37,782 nt of DNA, taken from positions 1 to 37,782 of the IMG/VR virus record IMGVR_UViG_3300028008_000041, one strand, 5' to 3'. Source of the stretch: a virus. Shown here in pieces: positions 24,249 to 34,312 of this stretch. How positions within the stretch are numbered: the first letter of the stretch is position 1; each line of letters begins with the position of its first letter. The notes below the pieces were generated by a model that was given only the letters and a program-made list of their open reading frames with translations, was not told the origin of the DNA and did no database searches. The position numbers were made by a program, and so were the translations under genes.

Positions 24249-25609
24249 TCGCCGCCTTCGTATAAACCTTGGTAACTCTTAGTCCAAGAAGTACCATCCC
24301 ATTTATACTGAATACTTGTTGTTAAATTACTTACATATTGTTTAGTACTGTTTGCACTAGCGTCGAAAGAAACTGTCCAATTAGAACCATCATATTCGAT
24401 GATATCGTTAGCAGAAGCAACTACACTACCCCACGCATCTGAAGCGTCTGTGTTGTCTGCATCTCCTATTGCATCTAATAGTAGATAACGTTGGCCTGTA
24501 GTGGCCGAAGCTAACCCGGTACCAGGTCCGCTATCTAAAGGATTAATAACTGCGGTTACTGCTGTTAAGGTATTTGTGGGAATACTATCTGCATCAACTG
24601 TGAAAAGTAGGTAATGGTCATCTGCTGGATGATAAGCAACTGTACCTACTACTTCTGATGTAGTTCCGGGTATTGCTAATCTAACTTGACTAATACCAGC
24701 ACGTAATTCACCGTATACGTCTATTAAACTCTTCCAAAATATACTACTTGCTTGTCCTTCTGCAGGATTTAGTGTTCCTTCATTTTCTTCTATTTGGTTG
24801 TGTTTTAATAACTGTAGTTGATTACCTATTAAAGCAACTTGATAACCAAACGGTGTAATTTTTTGTCTTGTACCTAACAGTAAGTCATCATTTAATAATG
24901 CTTCGTTAGCGTCGCCATCAGCATCAAATACACTAGAAATAATTTTATGGATAACACCCATTTTAGTAACTCTTGCTGGAGGTGATATGAAAATTGGTAA
25001 ACTAAATGTTAGTGTAGTAATGTCAATGTTTGCCTCTGTACCCTGTGGTATTGAGCGTGAACTCCAATTAGTTCCAGTTAGTTCTACGACACTCAATGAT
25101 GTCCAGTCAACGTAGTTATCTGTTGATTGTATTTCTAAACTTGGATTAAACAAAGTTAGAACTTGTTCTAACACCTGTAGTTTCATTGTAGTGTTTGTAG
25201 TCCATATATCTAAATTAATTGTTAAGTTATACGGTACTGGCATTAAACGTTCTACTGTAAACGCATTTCCTTGCGTAGCTTCGTATGATTGTGTAGTATC
25301 GTCCCAGGTGCGTTGCCTAAATGTTTTCTTATCTACAAAACTTGGGTCTTGCATTCTATCTCTAGCATAGTCAAGATTAGTAATGTAAAATGTCATTAAA
25401 GGTGAATTGGGTATTTTGTTTGCTGAGTTGTCAGACATAATAACAGAGGCCTGCTTGCTAGCATCACCGTAACGTACAGGTATCCTAGTATAAGTAGGTG
25501 CACCAGAGTCGTCTCTGCCGTACTCGACTTGAAAGTTTGAAAAAATTCTTGTAAATTGTAATAAGAATCTTCTTATTTGTTCGTCATAAAAGAACTGTTG
25601 TAAAGCCAT
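24230..25609 (-). CDS. gp15: Tail sheath stabiliser / tail completion protein gp15, extended
   Basis: 459 aa against 272 in T4. Residues ~1-245 match gp15: FFYDEQIRRFLLQFTRIFSN, then VEYGRDDSGAPTYTRIPVRY, MPVPYNLTINLDIWTTNT, QVLEQVLTLFNPSLEI and a late LPIFISPPARVTKMG segment. gp15 caps the finished tail and joins it to the neck. The C-terminal ~200 residues are an addition: a Leu/Gln stretch followed by a beta module with DIIEYDGSNWTVSFD, then QYKWDGTSWTKSY, unlike T4 gp15 but like modules in the fibres and gp14 here. Its ATG overlaps the gp14 stop (TAATG on the minus strand). Confidence 0.88.
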   Translation of the reverse strand: MALQQFFYDEQIRRFLLQFTRIFSNFQVEYGRDDSGAPTYTRIPVRYGDASKQASVIMSDNSANKIPNSPLMTFYITNLDYARDRMQDPSFVDKKTFRQRTWDDTTQSYEATQGNAFTVERLMPVPYNLTINLDIWTTNTTMKLQVLEQVLTLFNPSLEIQSTDNYVDWTSLSVVELTGTNWSSRSIPQGTEANIDITTLTFSLPIFISPPARVTKMGVIHKIISSVFDADGDANEALLNDDLLLGTRQKITPFGYQVALIGNQLQLLKHNQIEENEGTLNPAEGQASSIFWKSLIDVYGELRAGISQVRLAIPGTTSEVVGTVAYHPADDHYLLFTVDADSIPTNTLTAVTAVINPLDSGPGTGLASATTGQRYLLLDAIGDADNTDASDAWGSVVASANDIIEYDGSNWTVSFDASANSTKQYVSNLTTSIQYKWDGTSWTKSYQGLYEGGEWSLVL

Positions 25610-26769
25610 TAATTATCCTTCTTGGGTTTAAGCAAGTCACTAAGTGATTGTCGACTTGAAATATCACCTCTATCTGTTGTACTAATTGTTTCAGTATTGT
25701 TAACGAACTGGCTACGTTGTGTTTTATTATCATTACCTGGAGTAATATCAGTTCTGACACCATCTTCAATTTTAACCCATCTAACACCGTCGTACCGGAA
25801 TAGTCTATTTGGAAAGTAATCTAGCCTTAGTGCGTAATCACCATCGTCGGGACTACCTGGAAATGATACTCCTGATGTTACAGGCTTGCCGTTTGGTGGT
25901 ATATTATTACCTGTTAAATACCCTACTAAGTAACCATCTGCTTGTGCAGATACACCTGGAGTTTCAGTGCTGTCACCGTCAGCAACATCTTCATGATTAA
26001 TTGGCTCGTCATTTTTAGTAGGAACAACATAGAATCCTGAGTTGTCATAACCACTTAGTGGAACTTCAACTTCTGCTTGTTGTAATATATTATCGTTAAT
26101 TTCTAAATTCTTTTTCTTTTGACTTACAAAGTCTTCAATGGTTCCTGCTGATGGATTATCTTCATCCATTGGTTTGTTGAGTATATCATTGTATTCTTGA
26201 CTTGCAGTAAGTGGTGTTAGTTTAACACGCCATAAGTGAGGTTGCCATGTTTGGCTAAATCCTTCACTAGCAAATGACGCATCCTGAACTACATAATATC
26301 TTGGTAACGCTTTAGGACCCGATGTATCTAGCGGATGAAAATCTTTTAAGTTAGGAAATTCAAGAACGTCGCCGGCCATTAATTTACGTTCTAGCGTATC
26401 AACCATATCGTTATAATGGAATGTTACAAATACAGTATCACCATTTAAGAACAATCCAAACTGAGTAAGATCAAAGTCAATGTCTTGTGCATTATAGACA
26501 CCACGCATGACATAAATGCTGTCGTCGTATTCGCGATCTCTATTTTCTAAGAATAAAACATCTTCAATAAACAATGGGTTTGATTCATCGTAGACAGGCC
26601 TGGTTGCATCACCGTTATCTCTAACAGCTGAATCACCTACTGTTTTAGGTCCTAAATATTTGTGTACGTATAAATCTAGCCCGCCCACAGTATACATTTC
26701 TCGGATTGTGTTATCTAAGAACTTATAGTCGTTTGTTTTATTTGGTCTGTATAAACTTAGTCTTGGCAT
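25609..26769 (-). CDS. gp14: Neck protein gp14, extended
   Basis: 386 aa against 256 in T4. Early part: FLDNTIREMYTVGGLDLYVH, KYLGP, then an FIEDVLFLENRDREYDD segment. The core VTFHYNDMVDTLERKLMAGD, VLEFPNLKDFHPLD and YYVVQDASFASEGFSQTWQP, HLWRVKLTPL are typical of gp14 in marine T4-like phages. gp14 with gp13 forms the collar between portal and tail. The C-terminal third is a Pro/Asp/Gly-rich addition with SPDDGDYALRLDYFPNRLF and RYDGVRWVKI. First gene of a minus-strand operon with a late promoter 20 bases upstream, while its usual partner gp13 is on the other strand at 28314. Confidence 0.88.
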   Translation of the reverse strand: MPRLSLYRPNKTNDYKFLDNTIREMYTVGGLDLYVHKYLGPKTVGDSAVRDNGDATRPVYDESNPLFIEDVLFLENRDREYDDSIYVMRGVYNAQDIDFDLTQFGLFLNGDTVFVTFHYNDMVDTLERKLMAGDVLEFPNLKDFHPLDTSGPKALPRYYVVQDASFASEGFSQTWQPHLWRVKLTPLTASQEYNDILNKPMDEDNPSAGTIEDFVSQKKKNLEINDNILQQAEVEVPLSGYDNSGFYVVPTKNDEPINHEDVADGDSTETPGVSAQADGYLVGYLTGNNIPPNGKPVTSGVSFPGSPDDGDYALRLDYFPNRLFRYDGVRWVKIEDGVRTDITPGNDNKTQRSQFVNNTETISTTDRGDISSRQSLSDLLKPKKDN

Positions 26770-26788
26770 TAATGTTTCCTATTTTGTA

Positions 26789-26796
26789 TTATTTAT
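26789..26796 (-). promoter_or_regulatory. T4-type late promoter on the minus strand (ATAAATAA)
   Basis: On the minus strand CGATAAATAATAC precedes gp14 by about 20 bases, with TAGGAA as Shine-Dalgarno. It drives the gp14-gp15-Nudix operon, back to back with the early promoter at 26811. Confidence 0.6.
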
Positions 26797-26810
26797 CGTC
26801 TTTGAGCATC

Positions 26811-26839
26811 TTGACAATATATCCAAAAGACTGTATAAT
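26811..26839 (+). promoter_or_regulatory. Consensus sigma-70 (early) promoter
   Basis: TTGACA (26811-26816), exactly 17 bases, TATAAT (26834-26839): a perfect match to the bacterial vegetative consensus. Predicted +1 near 26846 gives a ~31-nt leader to the ATG at 26877. No late element is present on this strand, so the two following genes are probably expressed early. Confidence 0.85.
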
Positions 26840-26876
26840 AGCTTTACTTTAAAAAATATTCATATACACTGACTAA

Positions 26877-27140
26877 ATGGATAAAATACAGACATCACTG
26901 GAATGGCAAGAGCTAAGAGTGCAATTAGAGCAAAAAATTAACCATTTAGACTATAAAATTCAAAAAGACTTATATATAATGTTAAAAAATACAGATACAT
27001 GCGTAGGTAAATTAAGCATTGAAGAGATTCAATGCCGCAGATATCACAGACCAACAGGGAAGTTTTTAACTAAGTTAGAAGAAACAAATACAATGATAGC
27101 AGATATTAACAAGATGATAACTATGGGAGCGTTACTTTGA
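26877..27140 (+). CDS. Small early protein of unknown function
   Basis: 87 aa, helical and charged, pattern LEWQELRVQLEQKINHLDYK then IQKDLYIMLKNTD, suggesting a coiled coil or helical bundle; no Cys cluster, membrane segment or enzyme motif. No obvious Shine-Dalgarno stands before the ATG; the A/U-rich leader may suffice. First gene of a two-gene operon under the consensus promoter at 26811; its TGA overlaps the TTG start of the next gene. I do not recognise a family. Early expression and small size would fit a host-takeover or regulatory role, which is inference only. Confidence 0.7.
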   Translation: MDKIQTSLEWQELRVQLEQKINHLDYKIQKDLYIMLKNTDTCVGKLSIEEIQCRRYHRPTGKFLTKLEETNTMIADINKMITMGALL

Positions 27141-28267
27141 AGATAAAATTAGCAAAACTATCGGTAGAAGATAAAAAGGTATACGGCGAAGAACAATTAT
27201 TTGACGACAAGCAACCTACTCCAGAAAAACGAGCAAGCGAAGTTAGCAAACGAGTTAATTGGTATAACTATACACAAGATAAAAAAACAGCCAGGAAGTG
27301 GATGGTAGAATGGTTGGAACAACAAAACAAAAAATCTTTAATATCTGAGTTTAATAAGATTAAAGATACATGGGTACCTCAAACCTGTGGTTGGTATTCA
27401 AGGTTAGCAATTATTGGATTAGAGCTAACTGAGAAAGAGTCAACATTTATTATAGAGCGTACAGAAGAGGCAATAAAAAATCATAAAAAAACTGCAACGC
27501 CTGAGGATCTTAAAGAGAAACCTAAACGTCTTAATATACAAGAAATAATGATAGAGAAGACACATAAGGCAGGCGGAGAAATTGATGGGTTATGGGACGA
27601 GTATGTTCAAGGTCCGATGAAAGCAAGTGAAAAGCCACAAGGCATACAACAGATACTAGCCAGTTATAATATAATGGCTCAGCATATTTCCATACTCAAA
27701 GATCATTGGGCAAAGGAGCAAGAAGAGTTTAGTGAGGCTGTCGCTGGCACAGACGCCGATTTAAGCGAAGCATATAGTTGTTATACTAAGACCCAGCTCA
27801 AGAACATGATCAACTACTGTGCGGCGATTACAGCAGAATTAGACGCATATCATCAAAGCAAGAAGGCTAAACAGGGTGTTAGGAAGAAAAGACCAGTTCC
27901 ACCAGAAAAGCAAGTACGCAAATTAAAACACCTGAGGAAGTTTGAAGAGCTTAAATTAGAGTCTGTTGACCCTACTAGAATTCTTAAGGCAAGCGAAATG
28001 TATGTTTACAATACTAAAAACCGTAAACTACAATACTACGTTGCTGATGACTATGCTAAAACTTTTACAGTAAAAGGTACAAGTATTTTAGGATATGATA
28101 CGAACAAGTCAGCACAAAAGACACTACGTAAACCTGAGGACATACTTAAAAAACTACGCACATCAGGCAAACCGGATAGCCGTAAACTGTTTGACAGTAT
28201 TAAAACTACAGCTATTGCAGTTAACGGTAGATTCAACGAAAACTTAATTATCATTAAAGCAACTTAA
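27137..28267 (+). CDS. Early protein of unknown function (TTG start)
   Basis: 376 aa, Lys/Glu-rich and mostly helical. The TTG at 27137 is taken as start: it overlaps the previous TGA, has GGGAG at 27125-27129 about 7 bases upstream, and the first in-frame ATG is 55 codons in, past conserved-looking sequence. Features: VNWYNYTQDKKTARKWMVEW (~36-60), CGWYSRLAIIGLEL, a basic segment KKAKQGVRKKRPVPPEKQVR KLKHLRKF (two blocks, ~240-270), and a C-terminal domain with ASEMYVYNTKNRKLQYYVAD, TFTVKGTSILGYD and KTLRKPEDIL. The basic middle would suit nucleic-acid binding. Similar proteins occur in other marine phages without known function, as far as I recall. Not recognised further. Confidence 0.75.
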   Translation: MKIKLAKLSVEDKKVYGEEQLFDDKQPTPEKRASEVSKRVNWYNYTQDKKTARKWMVEWLEQQNKKSLISEFNKIKDTWVPQTCGWYSRLAIIGLELTEKESTFIIERTEEAIKNHKKTATPEDLKEKPKRLNIQEIMIEKTHKAGGEIDGLWDEYVQGPMKASEKPQGIQQILASYNIMAQHISILKDHWAKEQEEFSEAVAGTDADLSEAYSCYTKTQLKNMINYCAAITAELDAYHQSKKAKQGVRKKRPVPPEKQVRKLKHLRKFEELKLESVDPTRILKASEMYVYNTKNRKLQYYVADDYAKTFTVKGTSILGYDTNKSAQKTLRKPEDILKKLRTSGKPDSRKLFDSIKTTAIAVNGRFNENLIIIKAT

Positions 28268-28286: not shown

Positions 28287-28294
28287 ATAAATAC
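28287..28294 (+). promoter_or_regulatory. T4-type late promoter (ATAAATAC) for gp13
   Basis: TTGATAAATACTATTAAC lies 19 bases before the gp13 ATG, with CGGAGA as Shine-Dalgarno between. Predicted leader about 15 nt. Confidence 0.7.
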
Positions 28295-28313: not shown

Positions 28314-29069
28314 ATGGCAGATTTAACTACATTAAAAGATGATCTATTCAACTATGTTGAGAAACGCCTAGGTGGCGGAATTGTTGACGTTGAACTAGAC
28401 CCAGATCATTACGAAGTCGCTTATGATAAAGCGTTAACAACTTATAGACAGCGAGCACAAAACGCTTATGAAGAGAGCTATAATGTACTAGAGCTAATAG
28501 AAAACCAAAACACGTACACACTTCCACAGGAAGTCAGTTCAGTTAGACAGGTGTTTAGACGTACAATGGGTGACGCTACAGGTCCTTACTCATCAAGTTT
28601 TGATCCGTTTTCATCTGCTACATTAAATGTTTATTTGCTAAACTATTCATCTGCCGGTGGATTAGCAACATATGACATGTATACACAATATGTTGAAATG
28701 GCCGCAAGGATGTTTGGTGGTTTTATGAACTACACATACAATCCAGTATCAAAGCAGATATCTTTAGTTAGAGATCCAAAATCATCAGGCGAACAAGTAT
28801 TGTTATGGACATATAACTTAAAACCAGAAGTAACATTACTTCAAGACAATGCTATGAAACAGTGGATAAGAGATTACACTTTTGCCGCAAGTAAAATGAT
28901 TATTGGTGAAGCACGTGAAAAATTTGCAAGTATTGCTGGACCACAAGGTGGTACTGCACTTAACGGATCCTCGTTGAAAGCAGAAGCTCAAGCAGAAATG
29001 GACAAACTAATAGACGATCTGGCAACATACACAGATCACAGTCAACCATTGACTTGGGTAATTGGCTAA
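28314..29069 (+). CDS. gp13: Neck protein gp13
   Basis: 251 aa (T4: 309). N-terminal LKDDLFNYVEKRLGGGIVDV, ELDPDHYEVAYDKALTTYRQ, the Tyr/Leu-rich YNVLELIENQNTYTLPQEV strand pair and SVRQVFRR. Then VEMAARMFGGFMNYTYNPV, LLWTYNLKPEVTLLQDNA, MKQWIRDYTFAASKMIIGEA REKF in two blocks. These match gp13 head-completion/neck proteins of marine T4-like phages. It works with gp14 at the portal to close the filled head and join the tail. Its TAA overlaps the next ATG (TAATGA), coupling it to the basic protein. In T4 gp13-gp14-gp15 are adjacent and co-oriented; here gp14-gp15 are inverted and separated. Confidence 0.9.
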   Translation: MADLTTLKDDLFNYVEKRLGGGIVDVELDPDHYEVAYDKALTTYRQRAQNAYEESYNVLELIENQNTYTLPQEVSSVRQVFRRTMGDATGPYSSSFDPFSSATLNVYLLNYSSAGGLATYDMYTQYVEMAARMFGGFMNYTYNPVSKQISLVRDPKSSGEQVLLWTYNLKPEVTLLQDNAMKQWIRDYTFAASKMIIGEAREKFASIAGPQGGTALNGSSLKAEAQAEMDKLIDDLATYTDHSQPLTWVIG

Positions 29070-29477: not shown

Positions 29478-29506
29478 TTGACCTTTTAATCCAGCAATGC
29501 TATAAT
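29478..29506 (+). promoter_or_regulatory. Sigma-70-type (early) promoter with near-zero leader
   Basis: TTGACC (29478-29483), 17 bases, TATAAT (29501-29506). By standard spacing +1 is about 29513, and the ATG is at 29514, so the transcript would be leaderless or nearly so. It drives the exonuclease and dNMP kinase genes. Confidence 0.8.
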
Positions 29507-29513
29507 ACGCATT

Positions 29514-30038
29514 ATGGACTTAATGATTGACATAGAAACTCTTGCTACTGGCCCAGACGCTACGATTATGACTATAGCGGCTCAGGCATTTGACCCACTA
29601 TCTACAGGCTGGCCTGAAAAGCATTTCTACGCTAGAGTGACACCCGAAAGCCAACCAAATAGACACATTGACGATGCTACTGTTGAATGGTGGGCAAAAC
29701 AAGGACCCGAAGCTCAGCGAGAGGTATTTGAAGAACAGTTCCGTAGAGACTTGCACGACTGCTTAGACGAACTTGGTAAGCTAATATGGCAAAGTGATCG
29801 TATATGGGCTAATGGCATTTGTTTTGATATGAATATATTAGAGCATGCGTATAAGGAACATGGCATTGCACTACCGTGGAAGTTTTGGAATGTGCGTGAT
29901 GCTAGAACAGTTTATGCACTTTGGCCAGATTTATCTCAACCTAAGTCAGCAAGCCACCATGCGTTAGACGATTGCAAACGACAAATCAAAATGCTACAAG
30001 ACTGTATTAAACACTTAGGGATAAACAAACTAAAATGA
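29514..30038 (+). CDS. dexA: DexA-like 3'-5' exonuclease (DEDDh family)
   Basis: 174 aa (T4 DexA 227). Exo I: LMIDIETL with Asp6 and Glu8; then TVEWWAKQGPEA, the WW-x-x-Q-x-P-E-A motif also in DexA; Exo II around WANGICFDMNIL with Asp105; KFWNVRDARTVY; Exo III SHHALDDC, fitting His148-x4-Asp153 of the DEDDh class. All four acidic ligands and the histidine are present, so activity is expected. The T4 enzyme degrades DNA 3'-5'; in infection it may help degrade host DNA or process ends. There is no Shine-Dalgarno and the early promoter places +1 at the ATG. ATGA overlap with the next gene couples the two. Confidence 0.88.
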   Translation: MDLMIDIETLATGPDATIMTIAAQAFDPLSTGWPEKHFYARVTPESQPNRHIDDATVEWWAKQGPEAQREVFEEQFRRDLHDCLDELGKLIWQSDRIWANGICFDMNILEHAYKEHGIALPWKFWNVRDARTVYALWPDLSQPKSASHHALDDCKRQIKMLQDCIKHLGINKLK

Positions 30039-30685
30039 TTATAGCAATTAGTGGACTTATAGGGTCGGGCAAAGATACTGTAGCAGATTATCTTGTTAAT
30101 TTACACGAGTACAGACGAGAAAGTTTTGCAGGTAACCTTAAAGATAGCATGAGTGCTATATTTGGGTGGGATAGAGAAATGCTAGAAGGTCGCACAAAGT
30201 CAAGTAGAGAATGGAGAGAGCAAGTAGACCCATGGTGGTCAGAGCGTTTAGGCATTCCGCATTTAACTCCTCGTTGGATTTTACAGTACGTTGGCACTGA
30301 TGTTATTAGAGGCAAGTTTCATGATGATATGTGGCTAGCCAGTTTAGAAAACAAACTTCGTAAAACAACTGATGACATTGTTATTTCAGATGTGCGTTTT
30401 AAAAACGAAGTTAAAATGCTTAAAAACTTAGGTGCAATATGTATTGAAGTTACTAGGGGAGATAAGCCCAATTGGTATAACGATGCGTTGAGTGGCAACA
30501 CTTCACAGCTAGAACTACTAAAGATTCATAAATCAGAATATGATTGGATTGGCACAGACTTTGACTATACATTAGATAACAATGGTACATTAGATGATGT
30601 GTACACACAAGTAGAAACAGTATTATCTGCTAAACGTCAGGCGAAAGATCCCCAGGCTTCCATGTTGACTCCTGCCTCTGTATAA
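30035..30685 (+). CDS. gp1: Deoxynucleoside monophosphate kinase (T4 gp1-like)
   Basis: 216 aa (T4 gp1 241). P-loop GLIGSGKD at residues 7-14, then SFAGNLKDSMSAIFGWDREM LEGRTK, WREQVDPWW and PRWILQYVGTDVIRGKFHDD MW, all hallmarks of phage dNMP kinase; VISDVRFKNE carries the downstream Asp/Arg residues. It phosphorylates dNMPs to dNDPs, feeding phage DNA synthesis from degraded host DNA. Its pairing with the exonuclease in one early operon (ATGA overlap) makes a short salvage pathway. The C-terminal codons overlap the 3' end of the convergent HNH gene by 56 bases. Confidence 0.92.
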   Translation: MIIAISGLIGSGKDTVADYLVNLHEYRRESFAGNLKDSMSAIFGWDREMLEGRTKSSREWREQVDPWWSERLGIPHLTPRWILQYVGTDVIRGKFHDDMWLASLENKLRKTTDDIVISDVRFKNEVKMLKNLGAICIEVTRGDKPNWYNDALSGNTSQLELLKIHKSEYDWIGTDFDYTLDNNGTLDDVYTQVETVLSAKRQAKDPQASMLTPASV

Positions 30686-31090: not shown

Positions 31091-34000
31091 ATGGCATTAG
31101 TATCCCCAGGCGTAGAAGTAAGTGTAGTTGACGAAAGTCAATACTTACCAGCCGCAACGAATTCAGTTCCTTACTTGCTTATTGCAACAACACAAAACAA
31201 AGTAAGTGGTACAGGGACAGGCGTAGCTACGGCAACAACAGCCGCAAACGCAAACAAAGTACAACTAGTTACAAGCCAACGAGAACTAGCTACTTTATAC
31301 GGTAACCCATTCTTTTATTCAACAACGAACGGCACTCCATTAAATGGTTATGAACTAAACGAATATGGCTTGTTAACAGCTCACTCAGTGTTAGGTGTTT
31401 CTAACAGAGCGTACATACAGCGTGTTGATGTTGACTTAGCGGCTTTATCAGCAAGACTAACTAGACCAGTTGGTGACGCAGATGACGATGCATATTGGTT
31501 AGACACAGCAGAAACATTATGGGGCTTATTTGAGTGGAATAAAGCAACAGGTAAATTTACAAACAAAGTACCACATGCAATTACTGAAGCAACTGACTTA
31601 ACAGGCGGTGTTCCTAAATCAGCAGTTGGTGCAGTAGGTGATTATGCAGTTGTGACAACAAACACAGCAAATCCAGTTTACTATAAAAAATCAGACAACA
31701 CATGGGTGTTGGTTGGATCAGATGACTGGCAAAATTCACACTACTCTGTACAGAGTGGAACAACAAACCCAACATTAACAGCAGGTCACACTATTGTGAT
31801 TAACGGTATAACTGTTACTGCTTCGGGTACAACTGTAACAACACTTGCTAGTGATATTACATCAGCAGGTATTACAGGCATAAGTGCTTCAGCAGTAGCT
31901 GGTAAATTAGAAATTTATGCTGACAGTGATGTTACTCCAGAAGGTTCATCAGCAGATGGTGCGTGGACTATTGTTAACGGTACAGGTACACTATTAACAG
32001 ATTTAAGTATTACAGCAGATACATATTATGCTCCTGAACTAACACAGGCTAAACATACAAGTTTACCACGTTGGAAAACAACTGACACTGCTCCAAGACC
32101 AACAGGTTCTTTATGGCAGAAAACAACATCAGTAAACCAGGGTGCTAGTATTGTTGTTAAACAATATAATGAAGCAACAGACACATGGGCAGTAATTACA
32201 GTTCCTTTATACGCTGATGATGCCACAGCAAATAAAGAACTTGATCCAGCTGGCGGTGGCAGAAATGTTTCAGCAAATGTAGTATACGGCTATTTAGATT
32301 GGTCTGAAAACTATACAGCAACAATAAAATTACATGTACGTTCAGCAACAGGCGACACAGTAGTTACTTCAGTAAATGCAAACCCAACATTAACAAACAG
32401 CGACGCATTTACAATTTCAGCAAGTGCTAAAAACTCAACAACAATGAGTACAGCGGTAACTGCTACAATATCAGGAACAACAGTGCAAGACTTTGCTTCA
32501 GCATTTAATGCGGCAGGTGTTGCTAACACAATCGCAAGTGTAACAGATGGTTTATTAACAATCAAACATACACAAGGCGGAGTTATTGAAATTAAAGAAA
32601 CAGTAGGTACACCATTACAAGATGCATATGGCATTACTTCATTCGATGACTTAGATAAGAATGCAAGACTTAAATCAGACGGTACAACAGTTTTATTATC
32701 AAACTGGAATGCGTTGACTTATGAAGCAAAAGCAAGTGAACCTACACAAGATCCAGCAAACGGTACATATTGGTATCATTCAGTGGCTGACGAAGTAGAC
32801 GTTTTAGTACATGATGGTAGTGCATGGAAAGGTTACCAAACAGTAACTAATGATGTACGTGGCTTTGATTTATCAAACACATCACCAAACGGTCCACTAG
32901 TTTCAGCAAGTGCTCCGACATTACAAAGTGATAAATCAGCACTAGTATATGGCGATTTATGGATTGATACATCAGACTTAGAAAACTATCCGTTAGTTAA
33001 ACGTTGGGAATCAGTAGACGGTACAGATCAATGGGTAACTATTGACAATGCTGATCAAACAACAGAAAACGGTATTTTATTTGCAGACGCTCGTTGGTCA
33101 ACAGCAGACGTTGATCCAGTAACTGGAGATATAGCAACTATTAAAGCACTAGCATTGAGTAACAATTTAGATATTGATGCTCCAAAATCTACACTTTACC
33201 CAGCAGGTACATTGTTGTTTAACACAAGACGTTCAGGTTACACAGTTAAACAATATAAAGTAGATTACTTTAATTCAACTACATTCCCAGATGATAGTTT
33301 ACCAACAAACAAAGATGCGTGGGTAACAGTATCAGGCAATAAAGCAGATGGTTCGCCATACATGGGACGTAAAGCACAAAGAAATATTATTGTAGCGGCC
33401 ATGAAAGCAGGTATTGATACAAATACAGACATCCGTGAGGAACAGAAGGCATACAACTTGCTAGCGGCACCGGGTTATCCAGAGTTGATCCAAAACATGG
33501 TAGCACTTAACAATGACAGAAACAATACTGGTTTTGTTATTGGTGACGCACCATTTAGATTAGCAGATAATTCAAATGATTTAGCTGACTGGGCAACTGA
33601 TGCTTCAGGTACAGGTGCAGATAATGAAGATGGGCTAGTTTCAAATGATCCATATGCGGCTGTATTTTATCCGCCAGCTAGAGCAAATGACTTATCAGGT
33701 AACGCAGTTGTTGTTCCAGCATCACACGCTATGTTGAGAACGATTATTAGAAATGACGAAGTTGGTTATCCTTGGTTAGCTCCAGCAGGTAACAGACGTG
33801 GTCTTATTGATAATGTTACAGCACTAGGTTACGTTGACTCTGCAACAGGTGAATTTGTTCAAGTTGCTAACAGAGAAGCAGTACGTGATACACTATATGA
33901 AAATAACCTTAATCCGCTTACGTTTATTCCAGGAGCAGGCTTAACAAACTACGGTAATAAAACTACTGCAGGTGCTACATCAGCATTAGACAGAATTAAC

Positions 34001-34312
34001 GTAGCTAGATTAGTTGCTTACTTACGTGAAAAACTAGAAGCAGTTGGTAAGAACTTTATGTTTGAACCAAACGATACAATTACACGTAATGAAGTTAAAA
34101 ACGCTGTAGAGCAGTTATTAAATGATGTTACTGCTAAACGTGGTATTTACGATTACCTAGTTGTTTGTGATGAAACAAATAACACACCAGCAAGAATTGA
34201 TAGAAATGAACTTTATGTCGATATTGCTATTGAGCCAACTAAAGCTGTTGAGTTCATTTACATTCCAGTAAGAATTAAAAACACTGGAGAAATTGAAGCA
34301 GGTAATTTATAA
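31091..34312 (+). CDS. gp18: Contractile tail sheath protein gp18, greatly enlarged
   Basis: 1073 aa against 659 in T4. N terminus MALVSPGVEVSVVDESQYLP AATNSVPYLLIATTQ is the standard sheath start. The C-terminal ~280 residues carry the conserved sheath core: AAPGYPELIQNMVALNNDRN, YAAVFYPPARANDL, GYPWLAPAGNRRGLIDNV, LNPLTFIPGAGLTNYGNKTT, INVARLVAYLREKLEAVGKN FMFEPND and IEPTKAVEFIYIPVRIKNTGE. The middle (~120-740) is a string of beta insertions with repeated W-containing units such as GSLWQK...TWAV, GTYWYH...VHDGSAWKGY and GDLWID...QWVTID, which would decorate the outer sheath surface. It contracts to drive the tube through the envelope. A UUCG terminator follows. Confidence 0.93.
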   Translation: MALVSPGVEVSVVDESQYLPAATNSVPYLLIATTQNKVSGTGTGVATATTAANANKVQLVTSQRELATLYGNPFFYSTTNGTPLNGYELNEYGLLTAHSVLGVSNRAYIQRVDVDLAALSARLTRPVGDADDDAYWLDTAETLWGLFEWNKATGKFTNKVPHAITEATDLTGGVPKSAVGAVGDYAVVTTNTANPVYYKKSDNTWVLVGSDDWQNSHYSVQSGTTNPTLTAGHTIVINGITVTASGTTVTTLASDITSAGITGISASAVAGKLEIYADSDVTPEGSSADGAWTIVNGTGTLLTDLSITADTYYAPELTQAKHTSLPRWKTTDTAPRPTGSLWQKTTSVNQGASIVVKQYNEATDTWAVITVPLYADDATANKELDPAGGGRNVSANVVYGYLDWSENYTATIKLHVRSATGDTVVTSVNANPTLTNSDAFTISASAKNSTTMSTAVTATISGTTVQDFASAFNAAGVANTIASVTDGLLTIKHTQGGVIEIKETVGTPLQDAYGITSFDDLDKNARLKSDGTTVLLSNWNALTYEAKASEPTQDPANGTYWYHSVADEVDVLVHDGSAWKGYQTVTNDVRGFDLSNTSPNGPLVSASAPTLQSDKSALVYGDLWIDTSDLENYPLVKRWESVDGTDQWVTIDNADQTTENGILFADARWSTADVDPVTGDIATIKALALSNNLDIDAPKSTLYPAGTLLFNTRRSGYTVKQYKVDYFNSTTFPDDSLPTNKDAWVTVSGNKADGSPYMGRKAQRNIIVAAMKAGIDTNTDIREEQKAYNLLAAPGYPELIQNMVALNNDRNNTGFVIGDAPFRLADNSNDLADWATDASGTGADNEDGLVSNDPYAAVFYPPARANDLSGNAVVVPASHAMLRTIIRNDEVGYPWLAPAGNRRGLIDNVTALGYVDSATGEFVQVANREAVRDTLYENNLNPLTFIPGAGLTNYGNKTTAGATSALDRINVARLVAYLREKLEAVGKNFMFEPNDTITRNEVKNAVEQLLNDVTAKRGIYDYLVVCDETNNTPARIDRNELYVDIAIEPTKAVEFIYIPVRIKNTGEIEAGNL

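Follow-up and report, generated by a model that had tools for sequence, protein, structure and literature searches.

Our comparison of this phage fragment with its relatives leads us, on balance, to favor an islet of early genes inserted between two divergent late operons. The larger product of the islet, a basic protein of 376 residues (P376), would be a non-virion protein that most likely binds nucleic acid. The window, by which we mean the whole 37,782-nucleotide stretch that was analyzed, is a fragment of a marine T4-superfamily phage, with genes for the portal, prohead protease, major head protein, gp15-type sheath stabilizer, neck, sheath, tube and head closure. The tail-sheath protein has its nearest named relatives in the Sinorhizobium phage Phosso (47%) and in the PA5oct group of P. 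aeruginosa jumbo phages (about 42%). The sheath gene (31091–34312), closest to those of the PA5oct-group and Phosso jumbo phages, is unusually long at 1073 codons.

The promoter and its genes

The hexamers TTGACA (26811–26816) and TATAAT (26834–26839), separated by a 17-base spacer, form an exact sigma-70 consensus promoter on the plus strand (26811–26839), read directly and conserved in relatives. The sequence-only reading had singled out this site, and a scan of both strands of the window found it to be the sole exact match with a spacer of 16–18, against 0.05 expected from shuffling. The two open reading frames described behind it are also present as claimed, namely that of the 87-residue protein P87, with an ATG start (26877–27140, plus strand), and that of P376 (pI 9.4; 27137–28267, plus strand), whose TTG start overlaps the TGA of the former. 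The smaller protein had been called helical, and it is indeed predicted to adopt a three-helix fold (pLDDT 95.1). The dN/dS ratios are 0.13–0.15 for the P376 gene and 0.23–0.43 for the P87 gene, which evolves faster yet is constrained; judged from these ratios, both frames are real genes. The TTGA overlap and a GGGA-type ribosome site upstream of it are kept in 13 of 13 distinct close P87–P376 junctions.

The pair is flanked by a leftward operon (gp15 and a virion protein) and a rightward neck gene. The divergent left neighbor (25609–26769, minus strand) encodes a virion structural protein by profile match to phrog_11591. A minus-strand, late-type motif, CGATAAATAATA (26788–26799, direct reading), overlooked by the sequence-only reading, lies between this gene and the consensus promoter, so that the intergenic region reads as a divergent early/late promoter pair. 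In several sister-clade loci the motif is replaced by CGATAAATACTAG. On the right, the late promoter motif ATAAATAC (28287–28294, plus strand, direct reading) precedes the late neck, or head-tail adaptor, gene (28314–29069, plus strand) and would mark the right boundary of the early islet. This motif occurs seven times in the window, against 3.1 expected.

A second near-exact site, also missed earlier, is TTGACC-17-TATAAT at 29478–29506 on the plus strand, with one mismatch in the hexamers and a TG before the –10 (extended –10). It too lies inside the late cluster, upstream of a pair of overlapping genes for a DexA-like/Rv2179c-like 3'-5' exonuclease (29514–30038, plus strand) and a deoxynucleoside monophosphate kinase (30035–30685, plus strand). 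Just after the –10 of the first promoter is a conserved AGCTTTACT element (26840–26848, plus strand; AGCTTGACT in the sister clade), 89% identical between the clades. It has the form AGCTT(T/G)ACT, is near the expected transcription start, and is conserved almost as well as the hexamers. The element resembles a T4 MotA box, yet sits downstream of the –10. The sister clade has a second, weaker promoter, TTGACT-17-TAAAGT, 32 bases downstream.

Distribution of P376 and conservation of the promoter

P376 belongs to phrog_11903 (E 3.2e-61, residues 17–375 against positions 18–382 of the 383 of the profile), a profile matched by all 14 of the members tested. The relatives were collected as 32 related viral contigs found first with P376 and then by a profile scan, which confirmed the family in at least 577 viral-contig places. 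It is present in isolated phages of Sinorhizobium, Ochrobactrum, Caulobacter, Stenotrophomonas, Acidovorax, Variovorax, Pseudomonas and Synechococcus, hosts that comprise alpha-, beta- and gammaproteobacteria and a cyanobacterium. It was not found at the profile level in T4, KVP40, P-SSM2 or HTVC008M, nor in the sheath-related jumbo phage Phosso. In a scan of bacterial genomes the single match fell on a metagenome-bin contig. We found no named phage relative of P87.

Between two divergent clades the –35 is 83% and the –10 100% identical, while the spacer is 41% identical at a constant length of 17. Hexamers that stay near-unchanged, around spacer bases that diverged at fixed length, indicate a promoter kept by selection. 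Sites were counted in 86 non-redundant lineages, allowing at most one mismatch and a spacer of 17, and the 650 bases upstream of P376 were taken as the region of interest. The density there is 1.15 per kb, compared to 0.10 per kb elsewhere on the same strand (about 12-fold), 0.010 per kb within the P376 gene and 0.004 per kb on the opposite strand. A spacer of 17 is by far the commonest length (65 of 71 sites). By these criteria dozens of distant phage lineages share the same predicted promoter and the same place for the gene.

Whether the two genes are conserved together, and always with this promoter, had been posed as a check by the earlier reading, and such linkage holds in part. A site lies upstream of P376 in 55 of the 86 lineages (27 of them exact); a near-consensus promoter just upstream of P376 was not found in the named phages PA5oct, phiM12, OC, Mendera, ACP17, DLP6 or BUCT-ZZ01, which weighs against the early-islet reading. 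The gene pair is not obligate. In lineages that lack P87, or that have other small genes in its place, P376 or its leader gene keeps the promoter upstream, which thus tracks P376 and not P87. Conversely, G003, one of the related phages, has a P87 relative at a distance of 60 kb from P376, with a TTGACA-17-TATACT promoter of its own, so the linkage of the two genes holds in only part of the group. A frame of 142–151 codons substitutes for P87 between the virion gene and P376 in many lineages (L155, L157, L161, L163, L166 and L173 among them), in several directly behind a consensus promoter. Four further contigs (L010, L011, L012 and L016) are mosaic, with P87 and promoter like those of the window's clade (78%) and P376 like that of the other clade (66% to the window), a pattern that suggests recombination within the islet.

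Promoter classes in the related phages

We scanned non-redundant lineages for the motif ATAAATA within 90 bases, and for a sigma-70 site within 150 bases, upstream of selected genes. The motif precedes 77% of the neck genes, 52% of the divergent virion (VSP) genes and 75% of the sheath genes, and the sigma-70 site precedes none in all three. The sigma-70 site is upstream of 75% of P87, 36% of P376 and 59% of exonuclease genes, with ATAAATA at 0–1% (0 of 16 P87 lineages and 1 of 77 P376 lineages). The low value for P376 is partly due to the promoter lying beyond the 150 scanned bases in P87-bearing lineages. The split gives Fisher P values of 2e-23 and 1e-32, which overstate independence, since the lineages share ancestry. 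As read from these motifs, the two promoter classes are mutually exclusive between virion genes and early-type genes. A gene for a gp55-like late sigma factor is present in four of five large relatives. T4-like phages use host sigma-70 for early promoters and gp55 for late promoters (PMC1524935, PMC3037559, PMC5780444); in Ma-LMM01, sigma-70-like promoters serve all temporal classes (PMC5780444), which counts against the early reading. The early class of P87 and P376, read from motifs and comparison, is nonetheless well supported, and we infer actual early timing from it.

Two large relatives, G003 and G004, were read whole (133 and 132 kb). On the plus strand they have 12 sites versus 1.0 expected and 5 versus 1.4 expected, respectively. 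This promoter type precedes genes for a UvsW-type helicase, a primase, a UvsX-like recombinase, a DnaB-like helicase and an ATPase, as well as several genes without assigned function; the spacer is 18 at the primase and UvsX-like gene promoters. Since the class stands before replication and recombination genes, P376 and P87 keep company with the genes of DNA metabolism.

Among 118 non-redundant early-type promoters, an ATG begins 5–7 bases after the –10 in 23 (exactly 6 in 15). None begins at 1–4 or 8–10, and a broad second peak spans about 18–44. As the first peak falls on the expected transcription start, these promoters may give rise to leaderless early mRNAs. Sites of the putative leaderless type include L220:11784, L222:9648 and 15044, L184:2588, L066:2705, L155:2395, L157:2447, L158:5948, L178:6243 and others, and 29478–29514 in the window.

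The sequence-only reading had taken the pair for early genes with a host-takeover or regulatory function. Early, non-virion expression finds good support in the comparison, because the promoter is conserved, the promoter classes are mutually exclusive and P376 shows no structural homology. Host takeover, in which P376 and/or P87 would redirect the cell soon after infection through binding to a target of the host (RNA polymerase or the nucleoid, for instance), finds agreement in the strong host-type promoter, in the basic character of P376 and in the small, helical, clade-limited and faster-evolving P87. Takeover proteins are often of just this kind. Against it, the phages that share P376 infect very different hosts, the promoter class is found mainly upstream of DNA metabolism genes, and searches with defense-related models gave no match beyond noise. 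The first two of these observations are better accommodated by an intrinsic phage function, and we regard takeover as possible though unlikely, unsupported and not favored.

Gene neighborhood of P376

A virion gene is divergent upstream of P376 in 58 of 65 non-redundant lineages and a neck gene is downstream in 49 of 55; in PA5oct and most environmental relatives P376 is directly upstream of the neck gene. This synteny is the argument for P376 as a head-tail assembly factor (a scaffold, a chaperone or a minor virion part) acting beside the neck and tail-sheath-stabilizer products. We consider such a role quite improbable. The late motif precedes P376 in only the one lineage mentioned above. 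Homology of P376 to a virion structural family, which the earlier reading had named as contrary evidence, was looked for and not found, phrog_11903 being the only clear match. In the PA5oct record the neck and sheath neighbors are marked ESI-MS/MS and the P376 relative is unmarked, an annotation whose bearing depends on the detection limits of that analysis. Other T4-like phages have P376 in a replication-type neighborhood, apart from the neck genes: in phiM12, OC, DLP6, ACP17 and Mendera it is near rnh, ligase or ribonucleotide reductase (RNR) genes. The recurrence of promoter and gene position points to P376 as a widespread early protein, outside the virion, with a probable affinity for DNA or RNA.

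Predicted structure and role of P376

The AlphaFold2 model of P376 (mean pLDDT 93.9, pTM 0.53) has well-predicted domains whose mutual placement is not well predicted: helices at residues 29–119, helices at 134–245 and an alpha/beta domain at 265–376. Searches of Pfam, NCBIfam, PADLOC and the PDB sequences returned noise: nothing in Pfam passed the cut-off, and no PDB sequence matched significantly. The clear match is to phrog_11903, of unknown function; phrog_6501 matches weakly in the central part, a hit that carries no information. A Foldseek search of the PDB brought up no outstanding solved fold (best E 0.57), and the described matches in BFVD at E ≤ 0.001 are all uncharacterized phage proteins. 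That P376 is a UvsY-type recombination mediator, fused or diverged, is rejected as very improbable, since the VIA-align superposition of residues 150–252 on T4 UvsY (4zws; Z 6.0, rmsd 4.2, 86 residues) has a score that is ordinary for helical bundles and is equaled or exceeded by unrelated proteins, the P376 of the window has no PF11056 match in Pfam, and six of seven named P376 phages have a separate UvsY (PF11056 over the cut-off) at a different locus.

As no solved structure is clearly like P376, the case for nucleic-acid binding is built on its charge and its conserved residues. Lysine and arginine account for 16 of the 36 near-invariant residues (P = 1.5e-4), among which there is no histidine and no cysteine. 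The C-terminal part has a net charge of +15, and 12 of its 24 near-invariant residues are basic. This pattern fits a non-enzymatic nucleic-acid binder, and P376 most likely acts, by way of its very basic C-terminal domain, in the DNA or RNA metabolism of the phage.

In the early-islet model, host RNA polymerase with sigma-70 would read the consensus promoter soon after infection and make a single mRNA for P87 and P376, with translation of P376 coupled to the end of P87 through the TTGA overlap. The flanking virion genes would await the phage late sigma factor at their ATAAATA motifs. Made alongside the replication and recombination enzymes, P376 would stay outside the virion and probably take part in the replication, recombination or transcription of phage DNA; contact with DNA or RNA would most likely fall to the strongly basic C-terminal alpha/beta domain, which follows the two helical ones. 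The small helical P87 would be an accessory protein specific to the clade.

Relation to known systems

By full-length homology P376 is akin to phiM12 SmphiM12_258, PA5oct EST35_0192, Ochrobactrum phage OC p096, Cr30 gp005, DLP6 AAY80_094 and the members in ACP17 and Menderavirus, all hypothetical proteins of T4-superfamily phages. The isolates differ from the environmental clade, to which the consensus promoter and the upstream P87 belong. The PA5oct-group jumbo phages (Wroclawvirus, Arenbergviridae) likewise have P376 directly before the neck gene, followed by the dNMP kinase and sheath genes, but lack P87 and a near-consensus promoter close upstream. The early promoters of T4 are similar in their use of host sigma-70, in their strong –10 and –35 elements, in serving early genes and in coexisting with gp55-dependent TATAAATA late promoters (PMC1524935, PMC3037559). 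Their –35 is GTTTAC (PMC1524935), whereas that of the window is the vegetative TTGACA or TTGACC, and the genes of the window lie inside a late cluster.

A more far-reaching proposal, which we put forward tentatively and hold to be less likely than not, makes P376 an early factor of the T4 superfamily that is widespread, binds nucleic acid and has so far gone undescribed, within an early regulon that has many leaderless mRNAs. Replication, or the switch to late transcription, would depend on having the protein early, and it is for this reason that P376 would be kept under a near-perfect host promoter between divergent late operons. For phrog_11903, a family of unknown function present in isolates from four bacterial groups, the analysis suggests when it is likely expressed, what biochemical type it probably belongs to and a role open to testing. 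More generally, a perfect sigma-70 promoter within a late cluster can flag unknown early genes in uncultured phages.
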